Positions 26,849 to 46,489 of a stretch of 50,385 nucleotides of DNA are shown piece after piece. The stretch spans positions 1-50,385 of IMG/VR virus record IMGVR_UViG_3300024264_000053. The stretch is one strand, 5' to 3'. A model generated the notes under the pieces. It searched no databases. It saw only the letters and a list, made by a program, of their open reading frames with translations, and was not told the origin of the DNA. Origin of the DNA: a virus. The translations under genes were made by a program, and so were the position numbers. Position 1 is the first letter of the stretch. Every line of letters begins with the position of its first letter.

Positions 26849-27754
26849 ATGGCCGTCGGCGATCCAATTACAGCTACTAGGTATAACAATTTACAAACTA
26901 GAATCGCAACTATTTTTGGTAATGGTTCAGGAACAGACGGGTACGGACAAAGTGTAGCAAGCGGTCAGGTAAGTGTGGGAGACACAGTTACAGCAGTGCA
27001 TATCAATGATATAGTAAATGATATGGTAAAAGCCAGAACACATCAACTTGGATCTTCGCCTACTACAGTGAGTACTGTTGCTGTTGGCGACCTGATTGCA
27101 GAAAATACTAGCACAAATCCAAATGGCACTCTTAAAGGCCTTGCAGACTTTGAAAGTTTAATGTCTGAAATTGAATCTGGCAAATTCTTAATAGCAGGCA
27201 GCCAATCAACTGCTGCAACAGGAATTAGTAATTCTAGCAGTTCTTCCTGGAACGGAACAAGAACGCACGAAGTTAGAATGTCATTTTCAAATTCTAACAC
27301 AATTCGACACTTTTTTAATAGTGGAGGCGAATTAAGAACATCTGCTTCTTTGACTGGCGGGTCTGGCGCAAAAGGTTCAGATTGGGCCACAATGCTATCT
27401 AACATGGGAACTATTAAAATGAACTATACCCAAACTACATCAACAGGCACTGGGTCAGGTTCATCTATTGGATTCTACGACTTATCTGCGTCTTATCAAA
27501 CTATTTTTACAAAATCTGGCAGCGGAGTTTATGCAGAAAACGACTATATTGTGCAAGCTCGTTCTTCGTCATCGACTACAGTAGATTTTAAAATTCTTTT
27601 CCAAGACGATGATGCCGGCGATCAAACAGGGCTAGGTCCTGGTGTTGATGAAAATGTTACTGGTACACTAGCTAGCACTGTTAGCTATCTCCGAGCTTCG
27701 GGTTCTAATGTTAGTGTTGCAGCACCTGCATTTTCTAATACAACTACATATTAA
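26849..27754 (+). CDS. Virion structural protein, last gene of the tail module
   Basis: 301 residues preceded by AAAGGA. It starts MAVGDPITATRYNNLQTRIA, and a similar GDTVTAVHINDIVNDMVKAR segment follows near residue 45, so the N-terminus holds an internal duplication of a VGD-I/V-T-A helix-turn unit. From residue ~110 the protein is Ser/Thr/Gly-rich and beta-like (HEVRMSFSNSNTIRHFFNSG, ILFQDDDAGDQTG). I know proteins with this kind of N-terminus only as unnamed structural proteins of marine phages. Its position at the end of the fibre run and its own late box fit a virion component, perhaps a small fibre or decoration. It is followed by a change of promoter type, which marks the end of the structural block. 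Confidence 0.72.
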   Translation: MAVGDPITATRYNNLQTRIATIFGNGSGTDGYGQSVASGQVSVGDTVTAVHINDIVNDMVKARTHQLGSSPTTVSTVAVGDLIAENTSTNPNGTLKGLADFESLMSEIESGKFLIAGSQSTAATGISNSSSSSWNGTRTHEVRMSFSNSNTIRHFFNSGGELRTSASLTGGSGAKGSDWATMLSNMGTIKMNYTQTTSTGTGSGSSIGFYDLSASYQTIFTKSGSGVYAENDYIVQARSSSSTTVDFKILFQDDDAGDQTGLGPGVDENVTGTLASTVSYLRASGSNVSVAAPAFSNTTTY

Positions 27755-27822: not shown

Positions 27823-28173
27823 ATGGACGAGCGTCTATCTAAAGCACTTGAATTTTCGAATTATATGGTTACCCTCAATAACCAAAAGAGAATTCTTCAC
27901 GAACAATACAAACAAGACTTAGTTTACTACTACAAAGGCGGCCAGTTTTCGGTAACACAAGAACTAATTAGTTTTTGTCAAAGTCTTAATAACTTAGGAC
28001 AAACAGAAACAGTGCTGATCGACGACAATCGGCAACCTATTCAAATTGAATCTTTAGAAGATTTCTTGTTAGATATTGTAAACACATATTCTGATGCATC
28101 AAACAAATACTTGACAGAATATGATAATATTAAGAAAAACCGATCGGTTGAGGGTTTAGTAGAGCATGAGTAA
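27823..28173 (+). CDS. Conserved small phage protein, function unknown
   Basis: 116 residues, soluble, mostly helical, no Cys cluster or membrane segment. A helix (LSKALEFSNYMVTLNNQKRI) is followed by a YYYKGGQFSVTQELISF segment, a short loop with LIDDNRQPIQI, and a final helix (LLDIVNTYSDASNKYL). I recall similar small proteins among T4-like cyanophages but no function. It is the first gene after the sigma-70 promoter, with a good AGGAG, and its stop lies inside the ATGAGTAA that starts the next gene. The context would allow a cytoplasmic or virion role equally; I do not assign one. Confidence 0.75.
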   Translation: MDERLSKALEFSNYMVTLNNQKRILHEQYKQDLVYYYKGGQFSVTQELISFCQSLNNLGQTETVLIDDNRQPIQIESLEDFLLDIVNTYSDASNKYLTEYDNIKKNRSVEGLVEHE

Positions 28174-29023
28174 AGGCGTTCTAGTTTTTGCTAGAAACAA
28201 CAGTCAAGTAGATTATGTAAAACAAGCGTATTATCTTGCTAAGAGAGTACGAAAATATCTTGATTTACCTACAAGCATTATTACAGATAGTGGAGATTAT
28301 CTACGTTCTGCGTTTGATGATTGGGAAGATATATTTGATTATGTAATTGAGCCCGAATATACTAGTAACTATACGCTTAAACGATATCAGGACGGAACAC
28401 TTACAAATAAGCAATTAGAATTTAAAAACGATACTCGCACACGGGCACACGAGCTTACACCGTATACTGAAACATTGCTATTAGATAGTGATTTTATTAT
28501 TTCTAATAATGTTTTTTTAGAGTGTTTCAATCAAGAACACGATTTTTTAATTTACAAAGATGCATACGATTTAGCAAACTTTAGAGACTATTCAGAGTTT
28601 GAGTATATATCTGATACAAGTGTCGACTTTTATTGGGCAACCTGTGTATATTTTAAGAAAACTCGTTCAGTAGAAATATTTTTTAATTTATTACAACATA
28701 TACAAGAAAACTGGGGACACTACAACAGCACATTCCAAATAAATCGTAGCACATACAGAAACGATCACGCATTTAGTATTGCTATACACATAATGAACGG
28801 ATACGAGCAAGGAGATTTTGCTCACACAATGCCAGGAAAACATTTTTATACAACTGATAAAGATGTGTTAGTAGATATGAAAAATGAAAGTTTTTTATTT
28901 TTAGTAGAAAAAGAAGATTATCTCGGTGAATACACCCCTGTTAGATTTAAAAATCATAACATACACGTTATGAACAAGTTTAGTTTAAACAGATGTATCG
29001 ACAGGGAACTAGACAATGAGTAA
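28166..29023 (+). CDS. GT8-like glycosyltransferase family protein (first of a pair)
   Basis: 285 residues. A Rossmann-like N-terminus (MSKGVLVFARNNSQVDYVKQ), a strand-loop region (LPTSIITDSGDYL), and LLLDSDFII, where D107-S-D109 fits the DxD metal and nucleotide-sugar site of GT-A enzymes. This is followed by a strand of the type seen after DxD (FLIYKDAYDL), and a C-terminal part with HTMPGKHFY and NHNIHVMNK, possibly the His that completes metal binding. It resembles GT8-like proteins that use UDP- or related nucleotide sugars. It starts in an 8-base overlap with the gene before and shares its first 13 bases with the next gene, a paralog. Substrate unknown; it could act on host surface glycans or on virion proteins. 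Confidence 0.68.
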   Translation: MSKGVLVFARNNSQVDYVKQAYYLAKRVRKYLDLPTSIITDSGDYLRSAFDDWEDIFDYVIEPEYTSNYTLKRYQDGTLTNKQLEFKNDTRTRAHELTPYTETLLLDSDFIISNNVFLECFNQEHDFLIYKDAYDLANFRDYSEFEYISDTSVDFYWATCVYFKKTRSVEIFFNLLQHIQENWGHYNSTFQINRSTYRNDHAFSIAIHIMNGYEQGDFAHTMPGKHFYTTDKDVLVDMKNESFLFLVEKEDYLGEYTPVRFKNHNIHVMNKFSLNRCIDRELDNE

Positions 29024-29876
29024 AGGCTTCGTCATGTTAGCACAAAATTCAGAGTATGATTATGTTACTCAAGCATGTTTGTGTGCAATGAGTATTCATG
29101 CTACTAATATAGATGCTAAAGTTTCATTAATCACTAACGACCAAGTACCTACAGAATATGTAGAGTTATTTGATAAAATAATTGAAATACCATGGGAAGA
29201 ACACAAAGGAATATATTTAAATCATGCAGTAAGTGAACGCTGGAAGATATATCATGCTAGTCCGTATGAAGAAACTATTGTATTAGATACAGACATGTTA
29301 GTTCTGCAAGATATTTCTAATTGGTGGAAGTTTTTTGAAAACTACGAAATCTATTTTCCGGCAACTGTAACTACATATCGTGGAAAAAAGGTCACTAACA
29401 CATACTATAGAAAAGCGTTTATTGCGAACGATCTTCCTAATTTATACGTAGGGTTGCATTATTTTAAAAAGTGTGATCGAGCACACGAATTTTATAAATG
29501 GATAGAACTGGTTACAAACAACTGGGAATTATTTTACGGACAGTTTGTTAAAGAACATTATCCCAAGCATCCGTCCATGGACATTACAACGGCTATTGCT
29601 GCAAAAATACTGAATTGCGAAACTGAAGTTACAAACACTATAGTTAAGTATCCAAGTTTTACACACATGAAACCCTACATACAAGATTGGCATTACCCGT
29701 CTACAAAATGGCAAGAACGAGTTGGTGTATACTTAACACAAGATCTAAAATTAACTATCGGCAATCACATACAACGAGGTATATTTCATTATACTGAAAA
29801 AGACTTCGCTACAAAAAATATACTTGATAGATATAAGAATTACTTAGAGAAAAATAATGCAAGAACAAATTCCTGA
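29016..29876 (+). CDS. GT8-like glycosyltransferase family protein (second of a pair)
   Basis: 286 residues, paralog of the preceding gene: same MSKG start, the same ALLxxN-type N-terminal strand-helix (QNSEYDYVTQACLCAMSIH), and ETIVLDTDMLVL with D91-T-D93 in the DxD position. The DTD motif, the LYVGLHYFKKCDRAHEFYK element and a C-terminal HYTEKDFA with a His make the GT8-like assignment somewhat better than for its neighbour. The start lies in an ATGAGTAA overlap with the previous stop. A tandem duplication of a glycosyltransferase with divergent C-termini suggests two successive additions to one acceptor, but neither donor nor acceptor can be read from the sequence. Confidence 0.7.
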   Translation: MSKGFVMLAQNSEYDYVTQACLCAMSIHATNIDAKVSLITNDQVPTEYVELFDKIIEIPWEEHKGIYLNHAVSERWKIYHASPYEETIVLDTDMLVLQDISNWWKFFENYEIYFPATVTTYRGKKVTNTYYRKAFIANDLPNLYVGLHYFKKCDRAHEFYKWIELVTNNWELFYGQFVKEHYPKHPSMDITTAIAAKILNCETEVTNTIVKYPSFTHMKPYIQDWHYPSTKWQERVGVYLTQDLKLTIGNHIQRGIFHYTEKDFATKNILDRYKNYLEKNNARTNS

Positions 29877-30468
29877 GTTTATACACATAGAACAGCCTGC
29901 TTTAGACCCGTTCAAAGTTTACTTTGATTTAGACACTGGGCGAATACATGCTATTACTAACGAAAATTTAGACACAGACGAGTATTCCTATACAGAGGTA
30001 AGTTACGAAGATGTTGCTCCCTTAGTAAACGGTGAAGAACATTTTGACACATGCATTGTAGATTTTAATCCTAAACTTAAATTATACGAGTTACGTCGAA
30101 ACAGTATCGAACAAGATGTTTACACTGTTAGCGATTTAATATACAAGTGTCAAAGCTATCAAGATGCAGATATTCAAATAATACAGGATGTAAAAAATAC
30201 TTGTTGGAAATTTTTAATTTCAGAATCGTTAAGGCAAAGTTTAGCAGCAAACAATGTAAGTTTAAAATCGCAACTATCATTTAGCATAACAGAAGAAAAT
30301 AATCCAAATGTTCTTTATCGGTCTCTAACGTTTCCCTTTAGTCAGCTTGTGAATGAGTTTTATGTAATCAAAGATTTTAAAGAACAATACGAGTTTGACG
30401 GATTGCCTATTTCAGTGTATACTATAAAGAGATTCGATTCCTATTCGTACGAGGTTATAAATGAGTAA
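29857..30468 (+). CDS. Unknown protein of the glycosyltransferase cluster
   Basis: 203 residues, not recognised. Acidic N-terminal half with many aromatic strands (HIEQPALDPFKVYFDLDTGR, YSYTEVSYEDVAPLV), then TCIVDFNPKLKLYELRR and a C-terminal half with SLTFPFSQLVNEFYVIKDF. No transmembrane segment, no cysteine pattern, no catalytic motif. The start overlaps the previous gene by 20 bases and the stop lies within the next ATGAGTAA, so it is translated with its neighbours. The pattern of beta strands would suit a binding or adaptor protein, possibly a virion protein; this is inference only. Confidence 0.65.
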   Translation: MQEQIPEFIHIEQPALDPFKVYFDLDTGRIHAITNENLDTDEYSYTEVSYEDVAPLVNGEEHFDTCIVDFNPKLKLYELRRNSIEQDVYTVSDLIYKCQSYQDADIQIIQDVKNTCWKFLISESLRQSLAANNVSLKSQLSFSITEENNPNVLYRSLTFPFSQLVNEFYVIKDFKEQYEFDGLPISVYTIKRFDSYSYEVINE

Positions 30469-31366
30469 TAAAATAAGAATAGTAGACCAAGACATTATAT
30501 TTTTAAGCTACGATGAGCCCAATTGTGAAAAAAATTATGCAGATTTATGTTCAAAATTGCCTTGGGCAAAGCGTGTACATGGTGTAGAAGGGTCAGACGC
30601 AGCGCACAAAGCCTGCGCTGATTTATCAGATACAGAATACTTTGTAACAGTAGACGGCGATAACATTATTGATCCTGCATTTTTAAATCAAGAAATTGAC
30701 CTTGACGAATTAGGATTAGACAACGAATATGTTTTTAGCTGGTGCGGCAAAATTAATGTTAACGGACTAATGTACGGCAACGGCGGCCTTAAACTTTGGA
30801 CACGCAATTTTGTTCATAATATGCAAACTCACGAACATTCAACACCTGATGACGATAAAGGATTAGTTGAATTTTGCTTTGATGAAAAATACTATCAATT
30901 TAATGAAAATTTTTCTGAAAGTGTAATTAGTGCAACACCACATCAAGCATGGAGAGCAGGATTTCGCGAAGGTGTAAAGATGAGTCTTAACGAAGGAGCA
31001 AAGTCAGACAACATACAGAAAGCTTGGTGGCAAAACTACGAAAGATTGTTAGTATGGTGTTCAGTTGGCAATGATGTAGAAAACGGATGGTGGAGCATGT
31101 TGGGTGCTAGAGAAGGAGCATATCTAACAAACTGTACGGACTGGGATTATGTCAATGTTCGTGACTTTGAATACTTAAAGAATTACTGGGAAGAAAATTA
31201 TAATGCAGATCTAAAAGGACAAGCTGAAAGCAAGTTTGATCAATATGCAAAAGAACTTAGTAGTCAGTGTGGATTAGAAATAGGAACACTTGATAGTAAC
31301 AGTAGTAAATTTTTTAAACGTGTTTACAACAATTCGCCAAGAGTAGTAAGAACTAAAGGAAAATAA
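30461..31366 (+). CDS. GT-A-like protein with DGD motif, sister of the repeat protein's C-terminal domain
   Basis: 301 residues. N-terminal IIFLSYDEPNCEKNYADLC, a WAKRVHGVEGSDAAHKAC segment, FVTVDGDNII with D65-G-D67 as the DxD-like site, a YGNGGLKLW strand, and AWRAGFREGVKMSLNEG near residue 170. Each of these has a counterpart in the last 219 residues of the 1388-residue protein at 36667-40833 (VFISYNEIDAD, WVHGVKGIHQAH, WVVDGDAEI, YGYGGVKLL, WRSAFRECVKLTLN), so the two are clearly homologous. The fold looks like a glycosyltransferase of GT-A type. The remaining C-terminus (about 200-301) is Trp-rich and not shared. Starts in ATGAGTAA; the next gene starts directly after the stop. Confidence 0.68.
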   Translation: MSNKIRIVDQDIIFLSYDEPNCEKNYADLCSKLPWAKRVHGVEGSDAAHKACADLSDTEYFVTVDGDNIIDPAFLNQEIDLDELGLDNEYVFSWCGKINVNGLMYGNGGLKLWTRNFVHNMQTHEHSTPDDDKGLVEFCFDEKYYQFNENFSESVISATPHQAWRAGFREGVKMSLNEGAKSDNIQKAWWQNYERLLVWCSVGNDVENGWWSMLGAREGAYLTNCTDWDYVNVRDFEYLKNYWEENYNADLKGQAESKFDQYAKELSSQCGLEIGTLDSNSSKFFKRVYNNSPRVVRTKGK

Positions 31367-32773
31367 ATGGCATCAGAAACACAGAGGATAGAAAATACTA
31401 AACCTATTGTAGAAGAAGTAAGTCCTACATTTTGTTTAGCTAAATGGCATCATACTACAATATATTTGCACACAGGCGATACACACAGTTGTTATCATCC
31501 TTCTCCACATCATATTCCGAAGGAAGAAATTGCAGTAAATCCTAGTGCATTACATAATACTCTTGAGAAGAAACAAGAACGTTTTAAAATGCTAGTCGGC
31601 GAAAAACCTAAAGGATGCCAGTATTGTTGGAATGTAGAAAGTTTAAGTGAAGATCATATTTCAGATCGAATGATACGTAATGCTAGTATCTATACCCCGG
31701 AGCGGTTAAAAGAAATTACTAGCAATCCGTGGAATTATAATATTAATCCTGAATATGTTGAACTTGCATTTAGTAATGAATGTAATTTTAAGTGCGGATA
31801 TTGTCATCCGATGGCAAGTAGTTCTTACCACGCAGAAGTTAAAAAACATGGTCCTGTTCCTAACGTACAAAATCATAGTCTAGATGTTGATTGGTTTAAA
31901 CCAATGGCAGAAGATGACAACCCTTATATCAAAGCATGGTGGGAATGGTGGCCTGAACTTTCAAAAACGCTCAACATTCTACGTATTACCGGCGGCGAGC
32001 CCCTAATGCATAAAAGTACATGGAGGCTATTTGAAAGATTGCGGGAAGAGCCAAGAGATCATATCGAATTAAATCTTAACAGTAATCTTGGTATAACTCC
32101 TCGATTTGTTGATAAACTAGTTGATAATGTCAATGACCTAGTATCCAATAACAAGATTAAAAAGTTCAAACTATACTCTAGTATGGACAGTTGGGGCAAA
32201 CGTGCAGAATATATACGAACGGGACTAGATATCGAACTTTGGGAAAGCAATCTTAAAAAATATCTAACAGGCACAGGTGCACATGCTACAATGATGTGTA
32301 CATTTAATATTTTAAGTGTAACTAGTTTTACAGAATTTTTGCAAAAAGTCCTCGACTGGAGAAAAGAATTTTACGACCCTGTAAGACATAGAGTAAGATT
32401 TGATACGCCTTACTTAAAAGAGCCATTGCAGTATGACATGCACATACTTCCTAAAGAACACTTTTTGCCGTACTTCGATAAAATTTTAAAATTTATCGAC
32501 GATAATCGAGACGAAAACGACATGACTAAGTTTTCTGATTTAGAATATGAAAGATTTCGTAGAGTAAGAGACTACTTTGCTACAGTACAATACGATGAAC
32601 ACAAAGTAGAACAAGGTAGAATGGATTTTTATCACTGGTTTACCGAATACGATAAAAGGCGGAATGTAAACTTCTTAGAAACTTTTCCAGAGATGGAAAG
32701 CTTTTGGAATCTATGTAAAAAAACTATTGACGATAAAAATACAAACAGAATAGATGTAAAACAAATAGGTTAG
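31367..32773 (+). CDS. Radical SAM protein, twitch type (first of two)
   Basis: 468 residues. The radical SAM signature C-x3-C-x2-C is at C139, C143 and C146 (NECNFKCGYCHP); the GGE motif is at 209-212 (RITGGEP). Before the barrel there is a ~90-residue region with SCYHP (C42) and GCQYCW (C84, C87), which fits the N-terminal Cys-rich twitch region described for phage and marine radical SAM proteins annotated 'twitch domain-containing' and could bind a second iron-sulfur cluster. The C-terminal half (DFYHWFTEYDKRR, then NFLETFPEM) is shared with the paralog at 35116. Such enzymes cleave S-adenosylmethionine to start radical chemistry; substrate unknown. It sits among glycosyltransferase-like genes, suggesting modification of a sugar or peptide in the same pathway. 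Confidence 0.88.
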   Translation: MASETQRIENTKPIVEEVSPTFCLAKWHHTTIYLHTGDTHSCYHPSPHHIPKEEIAVNPSALHNTLEKKQERFKMLVGEKPKGCQYCWNVESLSEDHISDRMIRNASIYTPERLKEITSNPWNYNINPEYVELAFSNECNFKCGYCHPMASSSYHAEVKKHGPVPNVQNHSLDVDWFKPMAEDDNPYIKAWWEWWPELSKTLNILRITGGEPLMHKSTWRLFERLREEPRDHIELNLNSNLGITPRFVDKLVDNVNDLVSNNKIKKFKLYSSMDSWGKRAEYIRTGLDIELWESNLKKYLTGTGAHATMMCTFNILSVTSFTEFLQKVLDWRKEFYDPVRHRVRFDTPYLKEPLQYDMHILPKEHFLPYFDKILKFIDDNRDENDMTKFSDLEYERFRRVRDYFATVQYDEHKVEQGRMDFYHWFTEYDKRRNVNFLETFPEMESFWNLCKKTIDDKNTNRIDVKQIG

Positions 32774-32781
32774 GAACAACT

Positions 32782-34113
32782 GTGAACGAATTAAACTTTG
32801 TTTTTGAAGATATAAAAGGACATTTAAATTTTACCGAGTGTAAAGATTTAAACAACTCCGGTATTGCTAGATTTACTCCGAGTCCTGTTGCAACAAGTTG
32901 CATACGTAGTTTTAACTTAGACTGGAAAAATGTTGATTTCAAAATAACTGAAAATAACAGCAGTTCTAAACACGATGTTATTGTAATTCCAACCGGAGTT
33001 GCTCATAGTCCACCGAATTGGTGTGGTTATAAAGATTTAAACAAATGCTACGATGACGCAATGGACAAAACATTTAGCGTACTGTATTATCTTAAAGACA
33101 CGTACATAAAACGACTTCGAGACAAAACTGGATTTTTACTTTTAGATCAGACACACGAAGGATATCATGCTCCGTGGTTGTTTGATTGGTTCCACGATAT
33201 GTGTAAACATTACAGTGTGTCTCCAGAACAAATTATATACATAACTGGAGATTTAGATGTATCCTCTAAGTATGAAACTTGGTGCAAACAAAATTTAATA
33301 GACGAAAAATTAAAAGTTATGGGGTATCCTCATTTTGAACACGTGATACATAGAGAAATGTCTAATAGAGTAAAAAATAGAAAAAATCCTCTTGCTCCTA
33401 ATTTTGCCAAACAAATTATGCACAAAAAAAATAATGATATTTCTGTTTATAATTGTTTACAAAAAAGAGCAAGAGCACACAGAGCTTGGTTGTTTAGAGA
33501 ATTGCACGGAGCCAATTTGCTCAAAGACGGAATACTTTCCATGAACAAATTTGAAATTAAAAAATCTTTTTACCAAGGAAAAACCATATGTCAAGAGGAC
33601 TATGATAGATTTATAGATAAATTGCCTATTTTTCCTCCTGGGAACACTACTACTTACGAACAAGATACGTTTGAGTCTGTAATTGGCGGGAAGTATATAA
33701 CGGACTTAAATGACGAAATAATGTTAGATTCCTGGGTCAGTGTTATAAGCGAAGCTAGCTTTGCTGAAGACCAATGTTTTATAAGCGAAAAATCTTTTAA
33801 ACCTATTGCGTGTTATCATCCTTTCATTATTTACGGAAATAAAGGTAGTTTAAAAGCATTACACGACTTAGGGTATCAAACATTTAGTAAATGGTGGGAC
33901 GAAAGTTATGATATGTTAGATTCCTGGGAAAGATTAAACGCTATCATTAGTATCTTAAAAAGTTTACAAAAAAAATCTAGATCAGAGCTTTACAATATGT
34001 ACTGTGATATGCGTCAGGTATTAAAACACAATGCTCAAAATTTCAATACTCGATGCATTAATGTAAATCCAATTGTAAAAAATTTATTGGAGAATGTAAA
34101 TGTACCAACATGA
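32782..34113 (+). CDS. Glycosyltransferase-like protein (GTG start)
   Basis: 443 residues starting from GTG at 32782 with AGGAAC at 32772-32777. The last third has the pattern of Rossmann-type (GT-B/GT10-like) transferases: a strand (DSWVSVISEASFAED), ISEKSFKPIACYHPFIIYGN, where S-E-K followed by a small/hydrophobic stretch and G-N resembles the nucleotide-sugar site, then LKALHDLGYQTFSKWWDESY. I recall this C-terminal pattern in unnamed marine phage proteins. Upstream there is IVIPTGVAHSPP, LLLDQTHEGYHAPWL and a basic segment (YNCLQKRARAHRAWLFREL). Function likely transfer of a sugar; the family is not certain. It lies between the first radical SAM gene and the SGNH-like gene, which starts 14 bases before this stop. 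Confidence 0.6.
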   Translation: MNELNFVFEDIKGHLNFTECKDLNNSGIARFTPSPVATSCIRSFNLDWKNVDFKITENNSSSKHDVIVIPTGVAHSPPNWCGYKDLNKCYDDAMDKTFSVLYYLKDTYIKRLRDKTGFLLLDQTHEGYHAPWLFDWFHDMCKHYSVSPEQIIYITGDLDVSSKYETWCKQNLIDEKLKVMGYPHFEHVIHREMSNRVKNRKNPLAPNFAKQIMHKKNNDISVYNCLQKRARAHRAWLFRELHGANLLKDGILSMNKFEIKKSFYQGKTICQEDYDRFIDKLPIFPPGNTTTYEQDTFESVIGGKYITDLNDEIMLDSWVSVISEASFAEDQCFISEKSFKPIACYHPFIIYGNKGSLKALHDLGYQTFSKWWDESYDMLDSWERLNAIISILKSLQKKSRSELYNMYCDMRQVLKHNAQNFNTRCINVNPIVKNLLENVNVPT

Positions 34114-35119
34114 AATTAAAGCAATTAATCGAAGCTTAAAGAAAACTAGAAAAGCAATAGTATCATTCGGGTGTAGCTTTGTAGCAGGTGAAGGTGCAGT
34201 GTCTGTAGAAATATTGCAAAATTATAACTATATAGGTCGTCGAGGAGTACACGCTGAGATAAAGTTTACTAATCAAGCAGAAAAGGATGATTTTTTAAAA
34301 AAATATCCTCTCGTTACAGTACACTCAGACGGAAGTCTTCATTTAAGACAGCTAGAAAGAGAAAATGCGTTTGTCAATGTTTTATGCAAAAAGTATTTTT
34401 CGAAAGAATACACCCCTATAAATTTTGGCCTATCAGGCAACGGCAATAAGGCAAGCATAAGTCAAGTAAATTTTCTACCTAACATTAACTGGCATCTTAT
34501 TAAAGAATTAATAGTTGTATATATACCAACAGACCCTGCAAGAATAGGTTTTGTTAACGATCAATTTCAAGATCATGCTAGATTTATTACAATGTGGCCG
34601 CACCACAAAGCACATAAGTATTCAAGAGGAAAACTTTGGGATGGATATTGCGAATCTTTATATTCTGAGAAATTTGCTTTTTTAGAAGCTATCAACGATG
34701 TTTCTCATTTACGGAATTGGGCTAGTAATTTTAATTCTAAAATGATAATTTTTCCTGCCTTTAATAGTTACCGTAAAGAAAGGTTTGAAGAAGCTATACT
34801 AACTCAGGTTAGACGACATTATAAGAAAACTTCATTAATTTCAAATACAGTAGATAATTTTTCAGATAAGGACAGAAAAATTCAACAAGAACTAATAGAC
34901 AAACAATGGCCCTGGAGAAATATGTGGGAACCTGACGGGTACACAAATTGGGCACACCTTGTACAATGCGAATATGAGGATCCAACTATTGATTTTCATA
35001 CTTATGCCGGAACAGGAAGTCCTAATTATTGGTTTACATCCTGTATGCACCCTAGTTCAAAAGCCCACGATGATTTAGCACAGAGATTGTATAATTATAT
35101 AACAACGGAATTAAAATGA
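34100..35119 (+). CDS. SGNH/GDSL-like hydrolase or acyltransferase family protein
   Basis: 339 residues. Three of the four conserved blocks of the SGNH fold can be seen: IVSFGCSFVAGEG with Ser26 as the nucleophile, NFGLSGNGNKAS (108-118) with the Gly and Asn of the oxyanion hole, and a C-terminal CMHPSSKAHDDLA with His317. The residue usually three before that His is Asp; here it is Ser (FTSCMHP), so the catalytic pair may be incomplete. SGNH enzymes deacetylate or acetylate glycans and lipids; in a cluster of glycosyltransferases a role in O-acyl modification of the glycan is reasonable. Stop overlaps the next gene's ATGAGTGA by four bases. Fold likely, activity uncertain. Confidence 0.65.
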   Translation: MYQHEIKAINRSLKKTRKAIVSFGCSFVAGEGAVSVEILQNYNYIGRRGVHAEIKFTNQAEKDDFLKKYPLVTVHSDGSLHLRQLERENAFVNVLCKKYFSKEYTPINFGLSGNGNKASISQVNFLPNINWHLIKELIVVYIPTDPARIGFVNDQFQDHARFITMWPHHKAHKYSRGKLWDGYCESLYSEKFAFLEAINDVSHLRNWASNFNSKMIIFPAFNSYRKERFEEAILTQVRRHYKKTSLISNTVDNFSDKDRKIQQELIDKQWPWRNMWEPDGYTNWAHLVQCEYEDPTIDFHTYAGTGSPNYWFTSCMHPSSKAHDDLAQRLYNYITTELK

Positions 35120-36663
35120 GTGATTATAATAAAGCAGCTGACATAGCCGAAAAACAGCTTAAATTTATTAGTCCTACTATGTGTTATGCAAAGTGGGTCC
35201 AGACATCTATAAACCTGACCAGCGGAACGACACACAGTTGTTACCATCCTCCTATGCACTCTATAGATGTAGAAGAACTAACAGAAAATCCCAGCGCACT
35301 GCATAATACAAAGCAAAAGAAATCTGAGCGTAAACAAATGCTCAATGGCGAACGGCCCGAAGGCTGTGCATATTGTTGGAAGATAGAGGATGTAGACAGC
35401 AGAAGTGACAGGATATATCGTTCGGGGGAATACTGGGCACAGAATGCACGAGCAGATATTGCAGATGCAATTGACACAGGCAACATTACGCCAAGATATG
35501 TAGAAGTTAATTTTAATCAAGCTTGTAATTTTAAATGCAGTTATTGTTCTCCGCATCTAAGCACAACTTGGGAGGACGAAGTAAAGCAGTTAGGTGCAAT
35601 AGATGTACTAGATAAAACTGGCGCAGTTACAAAACATAATGACATAGATGCACTTAAAGAACAAGGAACAATGCCACTTAAAGTAGCACAAGCAGAAAAT
35701 CCTTATATACGAGCATTCTGGGAATGGTGGCCGGAACTGTACAAGAAGCTAGAAGTGTTTCGTATGACTGGCGGCGAGCCCTTAATGGATAGTAATATGT
35801 ATAAGGTACTAGACTACATATATAAACATCCTAACAACTGGTTAGAAGTAAGTGTAACTTCGAATATGTGTCCACCTAAACCGGAGCTTATGGATAAGTT
35901 CATTGAGAAAATGAAAAAGTTAGAAGAAATACAAATATGGGAAGATAAAGAACGTTGGAATCCAGGAAGTGGCAATAACTGGTATGTAAATATGGCGCTA
36001 AAAAACTTTGCATTGTTTGTAAGTGTCGACAGCGTAGGTAAGCAAGCAGAATACATACGTACAGGGCTAGACTTTGCTTATATGGATAATAATATAAAGC
36101 ATTTCCTAAATGAAACTGCTAATACTACTGTAACTTTTATTAATACTTTCAATCTACTCAGTGTACCGGGTATAAAGAGTTATTTAGAATATATATTAAA
36201 ATTAAGACAAAACTACAGAAGAGATGCACAAGGAATAAAGTATATTCCTATACACGATCCGTACAATACACACCCTGACTACGAAATACATCCCCGTCAG
36301 CGTATATGGTTTGATTTACCTGTTCTAAGATATCCGCAGTGGCAAAGCACGGAACTACTGCCAGAAAGTTACTGTGTATATCTTGAACAAGCTATCGAAT
36401 TTATGGAGCAAAATCCAGAGCAAGGTGACTTTGCAGGCTTTTATGATTTTGAAGTAGAAAAATTGCGTAGAAATCTAAATATCATGCAAGAAGGTAGTTT
36501 ACGTAACAGTACAACAGAAAAACGTAACTTTTATATGTTTTTTAAACAACACGACGAGCGTAGGAGTACAAACTTTGTAGAAACTTTTCCCGAACTAGCA
36601 GATTTTTACAATGCCTGCAAAGTCGACTATGAGAACGTTATCAGTACAAAACAGATAAAATAG
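35116..36663 (+). CDS. Radical SAM protein, twitch type (second of two)
   Basis: 515 residues, paralog of 31367-32773. C137, C141 and C144 form the C-x3-C-x2-C (NQACNFKCSYCSP); R216-MTGGEP-222 is the GGE motif. The N-terminal region again has SCYHP and a GCAYCW motif, preceded by TMCYAKWVQTSINLTSGTTH. Compared with the first copy it has an insertion around residues 160-190 (LDKTGAVTKHNDIDALKEQ) and another near 275 (IWEDKERWNPGSGNNW), so the two have diverged in their substrate-facing regions and probably act on different positions or molecules. The start is an ATGA overlap with the SGNH-like gene; the repeat protein follows three bases after the stop. Confidence 0.88.
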   Translation: MSDYNKAADIAEKQLKFISPTMCYAKWVQTSINLTSGTTHSCYHPPMHSIDVEELTENPSALHNTKQKKSERKQMLNGERPEGCAYCWKIEDVDSRSDRIYRSGEYWAQNARADIADAIDTGNITPRYVEVNFNQACNFKCSYCSPHLSTTWEDEVKQLGAIDVLDKTGAVTKHNDIDALKEQGTMPLKVAQAENPYIRAFWEWWPELYKKLEVFRMTGGEPLMDSNMYKVLDYIYKHPNNWLEVSVTSNMCPPKPELMDKFIEKMKKLEEIQIWEDKERWNPGSGNNWYVNMALKNFALFVSVDSVGKQAEYIRTGLDFAYMDNNIKHFLNETANTTVTFINTFNLLSVPGIKSYLEYILKLRQNYRRDAQGIKYIPIHDPYNTHPDYEIHPRQRIWFDLPVLRYPQWQSTELLPESYCVYLEQAIEFMEQNPEQGDFAGFYDFEVEKLRRNLNIMQEGSLRNSTTEKRNFYMFFKQHDERRSTNFVETFPELADFYNACKVDYENVISTKQIK

Positions 36664-36666
36664 TGT

Positions 36667-39600
36667 ATGTATGATATAATCTTTATTGGGAATAAAGCAC
36701 ACCCAAATTTTAGACAGCTTAAAGAGAGATTCCCTACAGCCAAACAGGCTGAGACATTTGCACAAGCCCGCAAGAAATCTCTTACCAAAATGTTTTGGAC
36801 TGTGTACGACGATGTATTAGTGTTAGACAACTGGGACTTTAGTTATGAAGCCACAGAATACGACAACGAATATATCCATGTGTTTCTTAATAAGGACGAT
36901 TATGACGGCGTAGCATTGCATCCTAAAAAACACGAGCCCGCCGAACGTGAAATAGAATACAGATATTATGTAAATAAAAAAGAAGTTGAGGTAGTAGCCA
37001 GCCAGCCCGACAGATACGATATATTTGAAATAGATAACTGGGAACAGTATCAACACGCATTACAAAATACCACAACTGAAATGTTTTGGATGACAAGTGC
37101 AAACATAGATACTTCAGATTTCAACTTCGGCATATACTTCAGTCATCGCAACAGCTACGACAGAAATCAAAATCATGCATTTGTACACCAAGTCGGCAAA
37201 GAAAAATTTTACAATGGTGTATTTCTATGTTCAAAAAACGTACCCTTTACTAAGCGTGAAGTAGAATATCGTTTCCCTGTAAACAAAAAAGAATGGGATG
37301 TAGTTGCTAGCAAACCTAAAACGTATGATGTATTTGAAATTGACACACATGAAGATTACTGTACTGCACTAGAGCAAACTACAACAGAAATGTTTTGGAT
37401 GACTAGTGCTAACCTTGACACATCAGAATTTGATTTCGATATATATTTTACACACGATAATGAATATGATAGAAAACAAAACCACGCTTTCATACATCAG
37501 GTAAACGGCGAGGATTATTATAATGGTGTTTTTCTTTGCAGCAAACATATACCTTTAAGTGCAAAAGAAGTAAACTACAGATTTCCTGTAAATCGTAAAG
37601 AGTGGAACATTGTTGCTAGCACTCCAGCAAAGTATGATATATTTGAAATAGATAGTTGGGAACAGTACCAACATGCACTTGAAAATACACACACTGAAAT
37701 GTTTTGGATGTCAAGTGCAAATATAGACACTAGTGATTTTAACTTCGACATATATTTTACACACGATAACGAATACGACCGAAGACAAAACCATGTATTC
37801 ATACATCAAGTAAAAAACGAAAATTATCGTAACGGGTTGTTCCTTTGTAGCAAACAGATACCTTTAACAAAAAGAGAAGTAGAACACCGTTTTCCTGTAA
37901 ATAGTAAAGAATGGAATATAGTTGCCAGTAAACCCACTAAGTATGATGTATTTGAAATTGAAACTTATGATGACTATCAGCAAGCACTAGAAAATACACA
38001 CACTGAAATGTTTTGGATGTCAAGTGCAAATATAGACACTAGTGATTTTAACTTTGACATATACTTTACACACGATAATGAATATGATAGAAAACAAAAC
38101 CACGCTTTCATACATCAAGTAAAAAACGAAAATTATCGTAACGGGTTGTTCCTTTGTAGCAAACACGTACCTTTAAGTGCAAAAGAAGTAAACTACAGAT
38201 TTCCTGTAAATAGTAAAGAATGGAATATAGTTGCCAGTAAACCCACTAAGTACGATGTATTTGAAATTGAAACTTATGATGACTATCAGCAAGCACTTGA
38301 AAATGCTCGCACTGAAATGTTCTGGATGTCAAGTGCAAATATAGACACTAGTGATTTTAACTTCGACATATATTTTACACACGATAACGAATACGATAGA
38401 AAACAAAACCACGCTTTCATACATCAGGTAAACGGCGAAAATTATCGTAACGGAGTATTCTTGTGTAGTAAGCATGTTCCGTTAAGTAAAAAAGAAGTAG
38501 AACACCGTTTTCCTGTTAACAGAAAGGAATGGGATATTGTTGCTAGTAAGCCTGTAGAATACGATAGATTTACTGTTAATACTTACGATGAATATAAACA
38601 AGCACTTACAAATGCTAGTACAGAACTGTTCTGGATATACCCGTCAAATATTGAGGTTGTGCACGGGTTAGACACATATTTTACACATGACAACGAGTAC
38701 GATAGGAAAATTAATCACACATTCCTGCATAACGATGGCGGCGAATATCTAAGAAACGGAGTGTGGCTTTGCAGTAAACACTTACCCCTAGGAAAAAAAG
38801 AATTAGAATATAGGTTTGTATTAAACGCCAAAGAGCATGAAGAAGTTGCTAGTAGGCGCAAATATTACGATAAGTTTTATATCAGTACCTATGAAGATTA
38901 CGAACGTGCTAGAGAAATCACTACTACTGATATGTTCTGGGTTATTTTTAACGATGTTCAAGAACTAGACAAGTTTGATTGGAATTTATATTTTCCGTAT
39001 AATCACATGCATGATAAAACAAATATGTTTGATAGAAATATTAATCACACGTTTCTGCATGACGACGAAGGTGAAACAACCAGAGGTGGAGTATGGCTTT
39101 GTTCTAAAGCAGTAGGACTAGGTAGGAAAGAAGTTGAATATCGTTATGTAGTAAATGCTAAAGAACATAATCAAGTAGCAAGTAAACGCAAATACTACGA
39201 ACGATTTTATATCGAAAACTTTGAAGATTACCAACGTGCTAGAGCTAGTAGCACTACTGACATGTTTTGGGTTATTTTTAACGATGTGCAAGAACTAGAT
39301 AAATTTAACTGGAAACTGTACTTTCCCCGTAAGCACATGCACGATACAGAAAACGAATTTGAACTAAACATTAATCATACCTTTGTGCACGATGATAACG
39401 GAGAACACACTTGCGGCGGTGTATGGCTGTGCTCAAAAGCAGTAGGACTAGGTAAAAAAGAAGTAGATTATCGTTATGTGGTAAATGCCAAAGAACATAA
39501 TGAAGTTGCCAGTGTTCGCAAGTACTATGACAAGTTTGAAATTAGCACCTATGAAGATTACGAACATGCACTTGCGTCAGCTACAACAGAAATGTTTTGG

Positions 39601-40833
39601 ATTGTGTTTAAAGATGTGAAACCCAAGAAAAATTTCAACTGGAATTTGTATTATTCTTACAAGCACATGCATGATGCTACTAATGAGTTTGACAGAAAAA
39701 TTAACCATACTTGGATACACCAAGACGGTGACGAACAGTTGCGTAATGGTGTGTGGCTATGCAGCAAGCATGTTTCTATAGGCAAACGAGAACTAGAATA
39801 CAGATTCCTAGTTAATGCTAAAGAACACGACGAAGTAGCAAGTACACGTAAATTGTACCAAAAGTTCGCTATTAGCAATTACCAAGATTATCTCAAAGCT
39901 CTTGAAAAATCACAATTGGATATGTTCTGGGCTACGCCAAAAGACGTATCTGTCACAGACAAAGAGATATTCAAAACATATTACCCTTACAAGCATCTAC
40001 ATGATGTAGAACACAAGTTTGATAGAGAAATCAATCACGTATACAAAAATGGTGAGTTTCAGGACGGTGTGATACTGTGCAGTAAGCATGCCAAAATATC
40101 ACAGCGAGAATGGGACTACGGATTTATAGTGAACAAGAAAGAAGTCCCAATTTCAGCTAGCAAGCCTAAGCCGTTTGATATTGTGTTTATTAGTTATAAC
40201 GAAATAGACGCCGATAGACGCTATATAAAGCTCTGTAAGCGTTTTCCTAATGCCAAGTGGGTACACGGCGTAAAAGGCATACACCAAGCGCATATAGCTG
40301 CTGCGAAGCTCTGTGACACCGGTATGTTCTGGGTAGTAGACGGTGACGCAGAAATAACAGACGACTTTGATTTTGATTTTCAAGTTCCTCGTTGGGAACA
40401 TGACATGGTACACGTATGGCGAAGTCAAAATCCAATTACCGGATTAGAGTACGGTTACGGTGGTGTAAAATTGTTACCAAAACAATTAACACTTGAGGTT
40501 GACGTAACTTCTACTGACATGACAACGAGTATTAGCTCTAAATTCAAAGCAGTACCTAAAGTAAGTAACATTACCAAATTCAATACAGATGCGTTTAGTA
40601 CTTGGCGTTCAGCATTCCGTGAATGTGTGAAACTCACTCTAAACGATGATACAGAGAGCCAAGAAAGATTAGAAGCCTGGTTGCACCCTGTCCCTAACGC
40701 AGATTTTAGACACGATGCTAAGAATGGTGCAGAACAAGGTAACGTGTATGCATTAGAACATACTAAAGATACACAGGCACTTGCCCTAATTAACGATTTT
40801 GATTGGCTAAAGGATAGATATGAAAGTAGATAA
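36667..40833 (+). CDS. 1388-residue tandem-repeat protein capped by a DGD-bearing GT-A-like domain
   Basis: Built from one module used about twelve times. Residues 2-116 are an N-terminal version (YDIIFIGNKAHP, MFWTVYDDV); ten repeats begin at residues 117, 220, 323, 426, 529, 632, 734, 844, 954 and 1064 (period 103, then 102 and 110); 1170-1388 is the full C-terminal domain, homologous to the protein at 30461. Each repeat has Y-D-x-F-x-I, D-Y-x-x-A, MFW, a D-R/K-x-x-N-H-x-F/W/V segment, an L/V-C-S-K strand and V-N-x-K-E. In the C-terminal domain the MFW is followed by D1225-G-D1227, as expected for a DxD glycosyltransferase; in the repeats the same spot reads SAN, PSN, FND, FKD or PKD, so they look catalytically dead. 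No signal peptide or membrane segment. Role unknown: perhaps glycan binding, a scaffold, or a polymer-length ruler. Start at 36667 lacks a clear ribosome site and follows the previous stop. Confidence 0.85.
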   Translation: MYDIIFIGNKAHPNFRQLKERFPTAKQAETFAQARKKSLTKMFWTVYDDVLVLDNWDFSYEATEYDNEYIHVFLNKDDYDGVALHPKKHEPAEREIEYRYYVNKKEVEVVASQPDRYDIFEIDNWEQYQHALQNTTTEMFWMTSANIDTSDFNFGIYFSHRNSYDRNQNHAFVHQVGKEKFYNGVFLCSKNVPFTKREVEYRFPVNKKEWDVVASKPKTYDVFEIDTHEDYCTALEQTTTEMFWMTSANLDTSEFDFDIYFTHDNEYDRKQNHAFIHQVNGEDYYNGVFLCSKHIPLSAKEVNYRFPVNRKEWNIVASTPAKYDIFEIDSWEQYQHALENTHTEMFWMSSANIDTSDFNFDIYFTHDNEYDRRQNHVFIHQVKNENYRNGLFLCSKQIPLTKREVEHRFPVNSKEWNIVASKPTKYDVFEIETYDDYQQALENTHTEMFWMSSANIDTSDFNFDIYFTHDNEYDRKQNHAFIHQVKNENYRNGLFLCSKHVPLSAKEVNYRFPVNSKEWNIVASKPTKYDVFEIETYDDYQQALENARTEMFWMSSANIDTSDFNFDIYFTHDNEYDRKQNHAFIHQVNGENYRNGVFLCSKHVPLSKKEVEHRFPVNRKEWDIVASKPVEYDRFTVNTYDEYKQALTNASTELFWIYPSNIEVVHGLDTYFTHDNEYDRKINHTFLHNDGGEYLRNGVWLCSKHLPLGKKELEYRFVLNAKEHEEVASRRKYYDKFYISTYEDYERAREITTTDMFWVIFNDVQELDKFDWNLYFPYNHMHDKTNMFDRNINHTFLHDDEGETTRGGVWLCSKAVGLGRKEVEYRYVVNAKEHNQVASKRKYYERFYIENFEDYQRARASSTTDMFWVIFNDVQELDKFNWKLYFPRKHMHDTENEFELNINHTFVHDDNGEHTCGGVWLCSKAVGLGKKEVDYRYVVNAKEHNEVASVRKYYDKFEISTYEDYEHALASATTEMFWIVFKDVKPKKNFNWNLYYSYKHMHDATNEFDRKINHTWIHQDGDEQLRNGVWLCSKHVSIGKRELEYRFLVNAKEHDEVASTRKLYQKFAISNYQDYLKALEKSQLDMFWATPKDVSVTDKEIFKTYYPYKHLHDVEHKFDREINHVYKNGEFQDGVILCSKHAKISQREWDYGFIVNKKEVPISASKPKPFDIVFISYNEIDADRRYIKLCKRFPNAKWVHGVKGIHQAHIAAAKLCDTGMFWVVDGDAEITDDFDFDFQVPRWEHDMVHVWRSQNPITGLEYGYGGVKLLPKQLTLEVDVTSTDMTTSISSKFKAVPKVSNITKFNTDAFSTWRSAFRECVKLTLNDDTESQERLEAWLHPVPNADFRHDAKNGAEQGNVYALEHTKDTQALALINDFDWLKDRYESR
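37015..40173 (+). repeat. Ten in-frame coding repeats, 306-330 bases each
   Basis: Unit starts at 37015, 37324, 37633, 37942, 38251, 38560, 38866, 39196, 39526 and 39856; the last ends at 40173. Copies 1-6 are close to 309 bases apart, later copies about 330. Copy 4 is a patchwork: 65 bases (37990-38054) match copy 3, 53 bases around 38056-38108 match copy 2, 59 bases (38107-38165) match copy 3 again and 44 bases (38168-38211) match copy 2. This suggests gene conversion or unequal crossing-over among copies. All changes keep the frame. Confidence 0.9.
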
Positions 40834-40963
40834 AGAAATTATCTGGCACTTTGTTTGCAAATTTTGTAAATGCTATTGGAGCATAGCAACAATGGAAGAA
40901 AAATGGAAGCCAGACAGATTGTACTGTCCTTTTTGTGGGAAACAAAATGAAAGTAGAACTTGA
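40820..40963 (+). CDS. 47-residue zinc-ribbon protein
   Basis: Starts at the ATG at 40820, overlapping the last 14 bases of the repeat gene, and ends at TGA 40961-40963 inside the next gene. It has two knuckles, C13-K-F-C16 and C36-P-F-C39-G-K, about 20 residues apart, the layout of a four-cysteine zinc ribbon; a further Cys is at 18. The rest is Trp/Lys-rich. AAAGGA at 40809-40814 is a good ribosome site. Small zinc ribbons bind nucleic acid or partner proteins. Overlap on both sides argues that it is translated with the cluster. Short length keeps confidence moderate. Confidence 0.7.
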   Translation: MKVDKEIIWHFVCKFCKCYWSIATMEEKWKPDRLYCPFCGKQNESRT

Positions 40964-41555
40964 AGACGTAATGTTCTGGATGGATGCTATTCGCAACAGT
41001 GATGATCAATATCGCACACTTGAAAGTTTTTGGAAAGGACAACTTCGCAGTAAAGTATGGCTGATAGAGAATCTTGCTCGCTACACAAGTCAATATCCTA
41101 GTAAAATAGTCGTACATGGTGGTTGGAACGGAGTGCTATCAAGTTTACTTTTTAACAGTGTCATTGCTATTAAACATATTACTAGTATTGACATAGACGA
41201 AACTTGCAAAGAAACTGCTCGTACTATCTGCAAAAATCAAGAAATGGAAGGCAAATTTATGGCGTTAACAGCAGATATGTGTAAGTTCGAATACAATGCT
41301 GACATAGTGTTAAACACCAGTTGCGAACATATTACACAAGAACAATATGAACAATGGCTCAGTAATGTACCGGATAATGCGTTAATTGTTTTGCAAAGCA
41401 ATAACTATAGTGAACTAGACGAACATATACGTTGTGCTAGCAGTACAGAAGAATTTATCACACAATCTAAACTAGACGTATCTTTTATAGATGAATTAGA
41501 ACTGCCATTGTATACTCGATATATGATTATAGGAAGAAAATGCAGTACGCACTAA
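40947..41555 (+). CDS. SAM-dependent methyltransferase-like protein
   Basis: 202 residues from the ATG at 40947; a GTG four codons upstream (40935) is also in frame, but GGGA at 40937-40940 fits the ATG. The class I methyltransferase core is seen as motif I (IVVHGGWNGVLSSLL, glycines near 58-62), the acidic end of strand 2 (TSIDIDETCKETA), LTADMCKFEY and DIVLNTSCEHI (motif IV position), then ALIVLQSNNY. It probably methylates a small molecule or a sugar of the same pathway, although DNA or protein cannot be excluded. The start lies inside the zinc-ribbon gene; the stop overlaps the next gene by 16 bases. Confidence 0.75.
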   Translation: MKVELEDVMFWMDAIRNSDDQYRTLESFWKGQLRSKVWLIENLARYTSQYPSKIVVHGGWNGVLSSLLFNSVIAIKHITSIDIDETCKETARTICKNQEMEGKFMALTADMCKFEYNADIVLNTSCEHITQEQYEQWLSNVPDNALIVLQSNNYSELDEHIRCASSTEEFITQSKLDVSFIDELELPLYTRYMIIGRKCSTH

Positions 41556-44850: not shown

Positions 44851-45126
44851 TTATTTGTATTTCAAATGTGGGCATGCTAACATAAACATGCTTAGTTCTT
44901 TTGGTTCTTCGAATCCTACTTTTAATACTTGATTTATTTTGTTGGATGAATCTACACCACTAGACCTCCCAACAAAATATCTTCCTTTAAGATTTTTTTC
45001 AATCCATTGACTTATAGCCGCATCTAAGTTATAAGAAAAGTCGACAGTAACATATTCAAAATAAACAGGTGCAATTTCTGTTTTTCTAAGGCCAAATAAA
45101 TTTAATGGATTTGGTTTTAAAATCAT
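44851..45126 (-). CDS. Conserved small phage protein, function unknown
   Basis: 91 residues, starting in an ATGA overlap with the metallopeptidase gene. N-terminal strand region (VYFEYVTVDFSY), a helix (LDAAISQWIEKNL), then GRYFVGRSSGVDSSNKI and a hydrophobic ending (LSMFMLACPHLKYK). No Cys pattern or membrane helix. Coupling to the VWA metallopeptidase suggests a related role, perhaps as a partner or regulator; this is inference. Confidence 0.7.
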   Translation of the reverse strand: MILKPNPLNLFGLRKTEIAPVYFEYVTVDFSYNLDAAISQWIEKNLKGRYFVGRSSGVDSSNKINQVLKVGFEEPKELSMFMLACPHLKYK

Positions 45127-46373
45127 GCTGTCTCGTAATGTACAGTTGTACCAAAAGGCGCTTGGATACTTTTATCTCTATTCGAATGAATTAAAAACAC
45201 AGTGTCACAGTAGCTTTCGTCACCCCAACTACCCCACGGATAACCGTCAGTGAACATGATAAACTTCTTAGGTTGGATGTCATTGTGCTTCATATAATCC
45301 CAACAGCAATCAAAATCAGTGCCACCGCCACCCATAATTTCGTACTCTGTTAAGTCCTCGCCGCCGTCACTGTGAAAGTCTTGTTCGTTGTACACCTTTG
45401 TATCAAAACACCAAAGTTTAATATTGTAATCTTTGTATTCATCCATAATGCCGTTTACTTCGCTGAGGAAATCTTTAGCTTGGTCATCACCGATAGAACC
45501 ACTCATATCTAATCCTATAGCAACATCAATAGTTTCATCAAAGTTCTGTCCGGGTAAAATAGCACCAGTATGCCAGCCTTTACGTGAAGGACGGCTAAAT
45601 GTAAAATCGTGTTTGATAATACTCTGAATTTGCTGGCGTAATATTTCACGCCAGTTCATTTTAGGCTCAGTAAGTTCTTTAATCATTCGTTGAATTTCAC
45701 CAGGCACATTTCCGGCGCCAGCGGCCTGAGCAGAACTCATCATATTTTCTTTAATTTCGTCACGAATTTTACGTAGGTCATCTTTGGAATGTGTAGGACG
45801 AGAGTCATTGCCTTCTGCATCCTTTTCGCCATCACTTTCCCAGTCGACATGTTCGTCTAGCAGTTGTCCTAATTGTTGCAGTTCTTCCTCGTCATATTTT
45901 TGTTCTAAGTCATCGTAAACTTCTTCAGACGTCCAATCTAGATATTTAAAGTCTTGATAGCACGGTACAAGTTTAGGAATATCACCGATTTTATCTCGAA
46001 CAAGAGTATTGTTTACAATGTAATCTGCCGCAACATTGTACAACATAGGATTACGATCTTGCCTACGTTCTAAGTGATCAAATACACAATGTAAAATTTC
46101 GTGAGCAATAACGAATTCAATTTCTTTATTACTCAGCGCATTAAAAAACTGAGTATTGTAGTAAAGAGTACGACCGTCAGTAGCCGCTGTAGGACACCAA
46201 TCATCACAGTGTTCGACACGCAGACGAGTTGCCATATTACCAAAAAACGGATGTCGAAGTAATAAGCCGATACGTGCAACAATTACTCGATCGTGTACGT
46301 CTTCACGCATTGTGGTTAGTTGTTCTGGCGTAATGTCTGGATTAGGTTGAAAACTTTTTGTTTCGATGCCCAT
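45123..46373 (-). CDS. VWA-domain metallopeptidase-like protein, partner of the MoxR ATPase
   Basis: 416 residues. Zinc-binding HEILH at 91-95 (EFVIAHEILHCVFDH) is followed by a second helix (YNVAADYIVNNTLV), as in the DUF2201-type putative metallopeptidases. The middle is acidic (CYQDFKYLDWTSEEVYDDLE). From 285 there is a VWA-like domain with D289-M-S-G-S293, a MIDAS metal site, and a FIMFTDGYPWG strand with a second Asp. This combination, next to a MoxR AAA+ ATPase, is a known pair in T4-like marine phages and in bacteria, where it is thought to act as a chaperone or assembly factor for a target complex. The target here is not known. It has its own consensus promoter, separated from the ATPase gene by a terminator. 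Confidence 0.88.
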   Translation of the reverse strand: MGIETKSFQPNPDITPEQLTTMREDVHDRVIVARIGLLLRHPFFGNMATRLRVEHCDDWCPTAATDGRTLYYNTQFFNALSNKEIEFVIAHEILHCVFDHLERRQDRNPMLYNVAADYIVNNTLVRDKIGDIPKLVPCYQDFKYLDWTSEEVYDDLEQKYDEEELQQLGQLLDEHVDWESDGEKDAEGNDSRPTHSKDDLRKIRDEIKENMMSSAQAAGAGNVPGEIQRMIKELTEPKMNWREILRQQIQSIIKHDFTFSRPSRKGWHTGAILPGQNFDETIDVAIGLDMSGSIGDDQAKDFLSEVNGIMDEYKDYNIKLWCFDTKVYNEQDFHSDGGEDLTEYEIMGGGGTDFDCCWDYMKHNDIQPKKFIMFTDGYPWGSWGDESYCDTVFLIHSNRDKSIQAPFGTTVHYETA

Positions 46374-46407
46374 AACTTATACCTGATCTTTGTAATGAAT
46401 ATACTAT

Positions 46408-46436
46408 ATTATAACAATATTTACAGTTATTGTCAA
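46408..46436 (-). promoter_or_regulatory. Consensus sigma-70 promoter before the VWA gene
   Basis: On the minus strand TTGACA (46431-46436) and TATAAT (46408-46413) are exactly consensus and 17 bases apart, about 35 bases before the ATG at 46373. Follows directly after the terminator of the ATPase gene. Confidence 0.85.
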
Positions 46437-46445
46437 ACAATTTAG

Positions 46446-46474
46446 AAAAAAAAGGACGACATTGCCGTCCTTTT
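46446..46474 (-). terminator. Strong intrinsic terminator after the MoxR gene
   Basis: AAAAGGACG (minus strand) pairs with CGTCCTTTT across a 7-base loop, followed by a run of T. The stem is nine base pairs with a GC-rich core. It sits between the ATPase stop and the next promoter and would end the ATPase transcript. Confidence 0.85.
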
Positions 46475-46489
46475 GGTAAAAATATATTA

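Follow-up and report, generated by a model that had tools for sequence, protein, structure and literature searches.

In the viral DNA analysed here, a stretch of 50,385 nucleotides (IMG/VR record IMGVR_UViG_3300024264_000053, positions 1 to 50,385; the window), an uninterrupted open reading frame (ORF) on the plus strand, with its ATG at 36667 and its stop codon ending at 40833, encodes a protein of 1388 amino acids (aa). It consists of an N-terminal variant module (N-module), ten tandem repeats (R1–R10) and a C-terminal domain (C-domain) resembling glycosyltransferases of the GT-A fold (Table 1). The initial annotation had described this layout, including the DGD motif of the C-domain and the deviating tripeptides of the repeats, and its coordinates and motifs were confirmed: at the position of the DxD motif the sequence reads YDD in the N-module, SAN in R1–R5, PSN in R6, FND in R7 and R8, FKD in R9, PKD in R10 and DGD in the C-domain. 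The C-domain is about twice the size of an array module. At the DNA level, R3–R4 and R4–R5 are 87–88% identical and the remaining neighbour pairs 56–77%, and Tandem Repeats Finder delineated two blocks, 37258–38549 with a period of 309 bp and 38788–39569 with a period of 330 bp.

To relate the modules to one another, we compared profiles built from relatives (216 repeats, 30 N-modules and 45 C-domains) using hhalign. The repeat profile matched the C-domain profile with 97.9% probability (E = 3.5e-13, 62 columns), the N-module matched the C-domain with 99.5% (E = 2.8e-23), and the repeat matched the N-module with 99.9% (E = 2.7e-32), compared with at most 1.4% for 20 column-shuffled control profiles. 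The alignment of repeats with the C-domain is thus far above chance, but it extends over about 62 columns (C-domain columns 44–111), less than the whole domain. The N-module keeps the order β1-α1-β2-α2-β3 in the AlphaFold2 secondary structure and, with all early elements present, is the link between the repeats and the C-domain. A further homologue in the window, the separate 301-aa protein starting at 30461, is related to the C-domain as the initial annotation had noted.

AlphaFold2 models of R8–R10 with the C-domain and of the N-module with R1–R4 had predicted local distance difference test (pLDDT) scores of 90.1 and 92.8, respectively. In these models, the elements of the C-domain and N-module follow the order β-α-β-α-β(MFW)-β and onward, and each repeat begins at the aligned second strand, the first β-α unit being absent. 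In Foldseek searches, the best PDB matches of the C-containing model (pLDDT 90) were GT-A enzymes, namely K4 chondroitin polymerase (E = 1.1e-5), WrtF and ppGalNAc-T, indicating a GT-A fold for the C-domain. For the array-only model, nearly all of the 50 best matches were GT-A or nucleotidyltransferase folds, including the PBCV-1 capsid glycosyltransferase and LH3. The structural match to the GT-A-like fold that the initial annotation expected the repeats and the C-domain to share was clear for the model containing the C-domain and weak for the array alone. Taken with the hhalign profiles, the models and Foldseek matches support the view that the repeats and the N-module are degenerate copies of the GT-A-type domain at the end of the gene.

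In the aligned columns, DxD is intact in 69 of 69 C-domains (39 DGD and 30 DAD) and occurs in none of the 327 repeats or 41 N-modules. The 368 modules are thus "dead" in the sense first proposed, having lost DxD throughout, but the repeats are not decaying. Where computable, the ratio of nonsynonymous to synonymous substitution (dN/dS) between repeats was 0.06–0.26, synonymous sites being saturated in several pairs, and the repeats are under strong purifying selection, which rules out pseudogene decay. Their near-invariant residues include the β5 histidine H58 (100%), the G-loop-like glycine G72 (99%), R54, E86, K96 and S103. The repeats are therefore non-catalytic yet functional. GT-A proteins bind the donor mainly through the early half of the domain and DxD, and acceptor contacts lie in the later half. 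The loss of DxD and the early unit, with the later half kept, suggests that the modules may have retained an acceptor-side function. In the C-domain alignment GYGG is near-invariant and falls at a plausible G-loop place; judged by sequence and model, the C-domain would be the catalytic GT-A-like unit of the protein.

The architecture is not a single oddity but widespread in uncultured phages. In IMG/VR, at least 133 sequences are related to the C-domain and at least 207 to the repeat, and in complete non-redundant proteins the same C-domain is preceded by 0, 1, 2 or more modules, to a maximum of 16 with the N-module counted. The occurrence of the same architecture in many independent assemblies rules out an assembly artefact. 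Arrays not cut by a contig end are followed by a C-domain in the same or the next ORF, and in L083, L089, L090, L091 and L093 the array is divided between two ORFs with an overlap of a few bases. Separately, the arrays at L010:3346-6696 and L063:275-4688 are broken into two frames, which suggests a frameshift or an assembly error. In a module tree read without support values, the N-modules of different viruses cluster, as do the last modules before the C-domain of the window, L003, L005 and L136. Internal modules multiply within lineages, R6–R9 of the window forming one clade beside a single L003 module. By this tree, the end modules appear to be conserved and the internal ones to vary by lineage-specific duplication.

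Searches of named phages returned no match to the array protein, the L060 C-domain, the 301-aa protein or the radical SAM protein, whereas gp6, used as a positive control, matched 94 records. The repeat was not found in GTDB bacterial genomes, and three contigs from metagenome-assembled genomes (MAGs) carry the C-domain only, without the repeat. One contig assigned to a Neomarinimicrobiota MAG (L158, PBPT01000016.1, 335 kb), with a radical SAM gene, a glycosyltransferase gene and a stand-alone C-domain, could be a large phage or the result of misbinning. In a Bdellovibrionales MAG contig (L160:1368-8675), the fibre-like protein, the 116-aa protein, both GT8-like proteins and the DGD protein of Table 1 recur together with a fusion of the DGD protein to a C-domain; the downstream genes resemble pheT, pheS, trmD and rplS by inspection, so the phage cluster may be present here as a chromosomal copy.

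As the initial annotation supposed, no described family covers the array protein. None in Pfam, PHROG or NCBIfam did so above the curated cut-off, weaker hits being below it or uninformative, and a PDB sequence search with the C-domain profile gave no match. A phmmer match of aa 877–1020 (39298–39726, R8–R9) to an exodeoxyribonuclease (PDB 3w2x, E = 6.4e-4) had no other support and is probably due to chance or composition. The exceptions were two proteins of uncultured Caudovirales phages in BFVD, A0A6J5LK21 (804 aa) and A0A6J5L5L5 (1076 aa), which matched in structure over more than 600 columns (E = 3.8e-33 and 2.8e-29); they apparently belong to the same family, are uncharacterised and have no assigned function.

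Among characterised systems, the GT-A enzymes E. coli K4 chondroitin polymerase (2z86), WrtF (9omn) and ppGalNAc-T share with the C-domain the fold match and DxD, and GYGG is a candidate counterpart of their glycine loop. They differ in that the C-domain has no sequence family match above cut-off and no solved sequence relative, and they have no counterpart to an array of many DxD-less modules. The accessory domain of LH3/PLOD3 is likewise a GT-like domain that lacks catalytic activity and stands in tandem with an active one, and has been proposed to recognise substrate or partners (PMC6082870), but LH3 has one such domain where the phage protein has eleven modules and its relatives up to sixteen. 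COSMC (C1GALT1C1) is also a pseudo-glycosyltransferase, having lost DxD and xED and serving as a chaperone or scaffold (PMC7185993), but it is a separate, single eukaryotic protein. The PBCV-1 capsid glycosyltransferase (2p72, 2p73), a viral GT-A protein whose described target is the major capsid protein, ranks with the best structural matches found for the array model; it has a single domain, and the match is weak (E = 0.09–0.2). The literature on repeated or inactive glycosyltransferase arrays yielded nothing comparable. As far as the libraries and literature searched show, an array of up to sixteen half-size pseudo-glycosyltransferase modules joined to one DxD-intact domain is undescribed.

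The window covers a T4-type tail region with gp5-like, gp25 and gp6 genes, a 5083-aa virion protein and fibre or collar proteins, and the virus is a large phage of aquatic bacteria. Its gp6 has relatives with about 38% identity in large phages, SCTP-2 and PA5oct among them, and with 47–60% identity in 14 of 22 contigs bearing the family, which reach 330 kb. The 5083-aa protein is a single ORF after gp6 (5834-21085) that matches the PHROG virion structural protein phrog_10938 and is very large for a baseplate protein. The array gene or C-domain is repeatedly accompanied by a set of genes comprising the fibre-like protein at 26849, the 116-aa protein, the two GT8-like proteins, a 203-aa protein, the 301-aa DGD protein, the NF033640 radical SAM proteins and the methyltransferase. 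A radical SAM gene adjoins the array gene also in L012, L107, L110 and L136. Within the cluster, two further ORFs with no family above threshold read as GT-B-like (32782-34113, EKSFKPI-type motif) and SGNH-hydrolase-like (34100-35119, GCSF motif). Farther downstream, on the minus strand (45123-47578), a MoxR-like AAA ATPase (46490-47578) adjoins a VWA-like protein (45123-46373), both assigned by inspection.

Table 1. Array gene, its modules and neighbouring genes in the window
Feature	Position	Strand	Basis
Putative array glycosyltransferase, whole gene (N-module, R1–R10, C-domain; 1388 aa)	36667..40833	+	Open frame; relatives in many viral contigs
N-terminal variant module, aa 1–112, motif YDD	36667..37002	+	hhalign; AlphaFold2 secondary structure
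Pseudo-GT-A modules R1–R10 in tandem, 102–110 aa each, aa 113–1166, without DxD	37003..40164	+	Alignment, DNA tandem repeats, motif table
C-terminal GT-A-like domain, 222 aa (aa 1167–1388), DGD and GYGG loop, putative catalytic	40165..40830	+	Foldseek; DxD in 69/69 relatives
Separate 301-aa C-domain homologue with its own DGD	30461..31366	+	33% identity, E = 9.6e-22 to C-domain
Ser/Thr-rich (28%) fibre-like protein, candidate acceptor	26849..27754	+	Homologues upstream of the 27823 and GT8-like a genes in related loci
Conserved small protein, 116 aa	27823..28173	+	Conserved order
GT8-like glycosyltransferase a (by sequence reading)	28166..29023	+	Conserved order; no family above threshold
GT8-like glycosyltransferase b (by sequence reading)	29016..29876	+	Conserved order; weak phrog_1903 (unknown function)
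Twitch-domain radical SAM protein (NF033640)	31367..32773	+	E = 1.5e-92
Twitch-domain radical SAM protein (NF033640), 3 bp before array gene	35116..36663	+	E = 1.1e-93
Methyltransferase-like protein, often downstream of array gene	40935..41555	+	Pfam Methyltransf_25 below cut-off; conserved neighbour

A second lineage, with 8–16 modules, has a different neighbourhood, in which a giant S74 fibre gene (2716–3939 aa), a small ORF, a 191–204-aa glycosyltransferase and the array gene are followed by gp15 on the other strand; in 16 of 16 contigs, this glycosyltransferase gene immediately precedes the array gene. The C-domain also occurs in fusions. In L065:3478-5406 and L068:5998-7929, a radical SAM-like protein, in which CxxxCxxC can be read, is attached to its end, which would provide a direct link between a sugar transferase and radical chemistry. 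In L074, L159 and L160 it is fused to a domain of the type encoded at 30461. The ingredients of the window cluster are familiar, as pelagimyophage host-recognition clusters contain GT8 and radical SAM genes (PMC7029224).

We propose that the array protein is a glycosyltransferase of the phage host-recognition cluster, in which the pseudo-glycosyltransferase array holds the acceptor or scaffolds partners, and put the probability of this reading at about 50%. In such an enzyme, the DGD of the C-domain would bind metal and nucleotide-sugar. The N-module and the ten repeats share the ancestry of the C-domain but have lost DxD, and the repeats also the first β-α unit, with the later half of the fold kept. 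The non-catalytic modules would form an elongated row that repeatedly keeps the acceptor, or partner enzymes, close to the one active site, and a repetitive or long substrate could thereby receive many modifications in each encounter. The acceptor would most likely be a surface protein of the virion, such as a fibre, or a glycan on it, as the fibre genes and other glycosyltransferases shared by the two distinct neighbourhoods point to fibre or virion glycosylation. The range of zero to sixteen modules and the frequent closeness to tail-fibre genes would fit machinery that coats with sugar or recognises surfaces, its non-catalytic arm being adjustable.

Several observations weigh against this proposal. 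The array-only model has a best Foldseek E value of 4.2e-2 against GT-A structures, such that the GT-A fold of the repeats rests chiefly on sequence-profile homology. In the C-domain alignment, the acidic residues D118 and E153 are invariant, but neither is assignable as xED, and the C-terminal part of that alignment has no conserved histidine, leaving the metal-binding histidine of GT-A enzymes without an obvious counterpart; this histidine has been lost independently in several GT-A families (PMC7185993). Repeated acceptor binding by the array, preferred among the readings, is a possibility that we infer, and a location close to fibre genes is no proof that the fibre is the acceptor. Finally, the pelagimyophage study argues for modification of the host O-chain (PMC7029224).

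The latter view gives a serious rival, to which we assign a minority chance: the enzyme would modify the host surface, i.e. the lipopolysaccharide O-chain or another glycan, thereby excluding other phages, with the array binding a long polysaccharide that the C-domain extends or decorates. The GT8-type genes that pelagimyophages carry in the same region are read in that way (PMC7029224), the cluster contains several glycosyltransferases, and the multi-module model has its best structural relative in K4CP, which polymerises a polysaccharide. However, no genes for nucleotide-sugar or O-chain synthesis were recognised within the window, and in the long-array lineage one other glycosyltransferase only stands alongside, between fibre and neck genes. 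Somewhat less probable is an array that does not bind the acceptor but assists partner enzymes (radical SAM, GT8 or the 30461 protein) or fibre folding as a scaffold or chaperone. The C-domain fusions and the conserved gene sets would fit this role, and COSMC, the chaperone of T-synthase, is a pseudo-glycosyltransferase precedent (PMC7185993), but in the long-array lineage most of these partners are missing from the neighbourhood although its arrays are the longest, and stand-alone C-domains (0 modules) occur in the full cluster.

It is unlikely that the number of modules sets the length of a glycan or fibre, with the array as a ruler or spacer; the initial annotation had considered such a role for a glycan, and we found no clear support for it. 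Copy number varies widely, by internal duplication, and module number shows a weak positive trend with fibre length (7 non-independent pairs, rho 0.73, p 0.06), but 8 modules occur with fibres of 2716 and 3793 aa, and 9 and 16 modules with near-equal fibres of about 3900 aa; given these clear exceptions, a strict ruler is not supported. Least likely of all is that the protein is a virion component with GT-like modules as lectin-like receptor binders and no enzymatic role, as, despite the position of the gene in the tail-fibre region of T4-type phages, DxD is conserved in every C-domain, the protein is fused to and flanked by enzyme-like genes, and Pfam and PHROG scans show no fibre or baseplate adaptor domain.

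More tentatively, the proposed glycosyltransferase could represent a new class of processive or multi-site phage enzyme, a rod of half-domain pseudo-glycosyltransferases, growing and shrinking through internal duplication, that would offer a fibre or glycan acceptor to the one catalytic domain and whose module number would tune the density or extent of the sugar coating on the virion; we give this reading a minority chance. Single inactive glycosyltransferase domains beside active ones are already known, and the novelty lies in the array. The natural series of 0–16 modules on the same C-domain makes the role of accessory pseudo-enzyme modules directly measurable, and the family points to an unstudied glycan system beside the tail-fibre genes of large aquatic phages.

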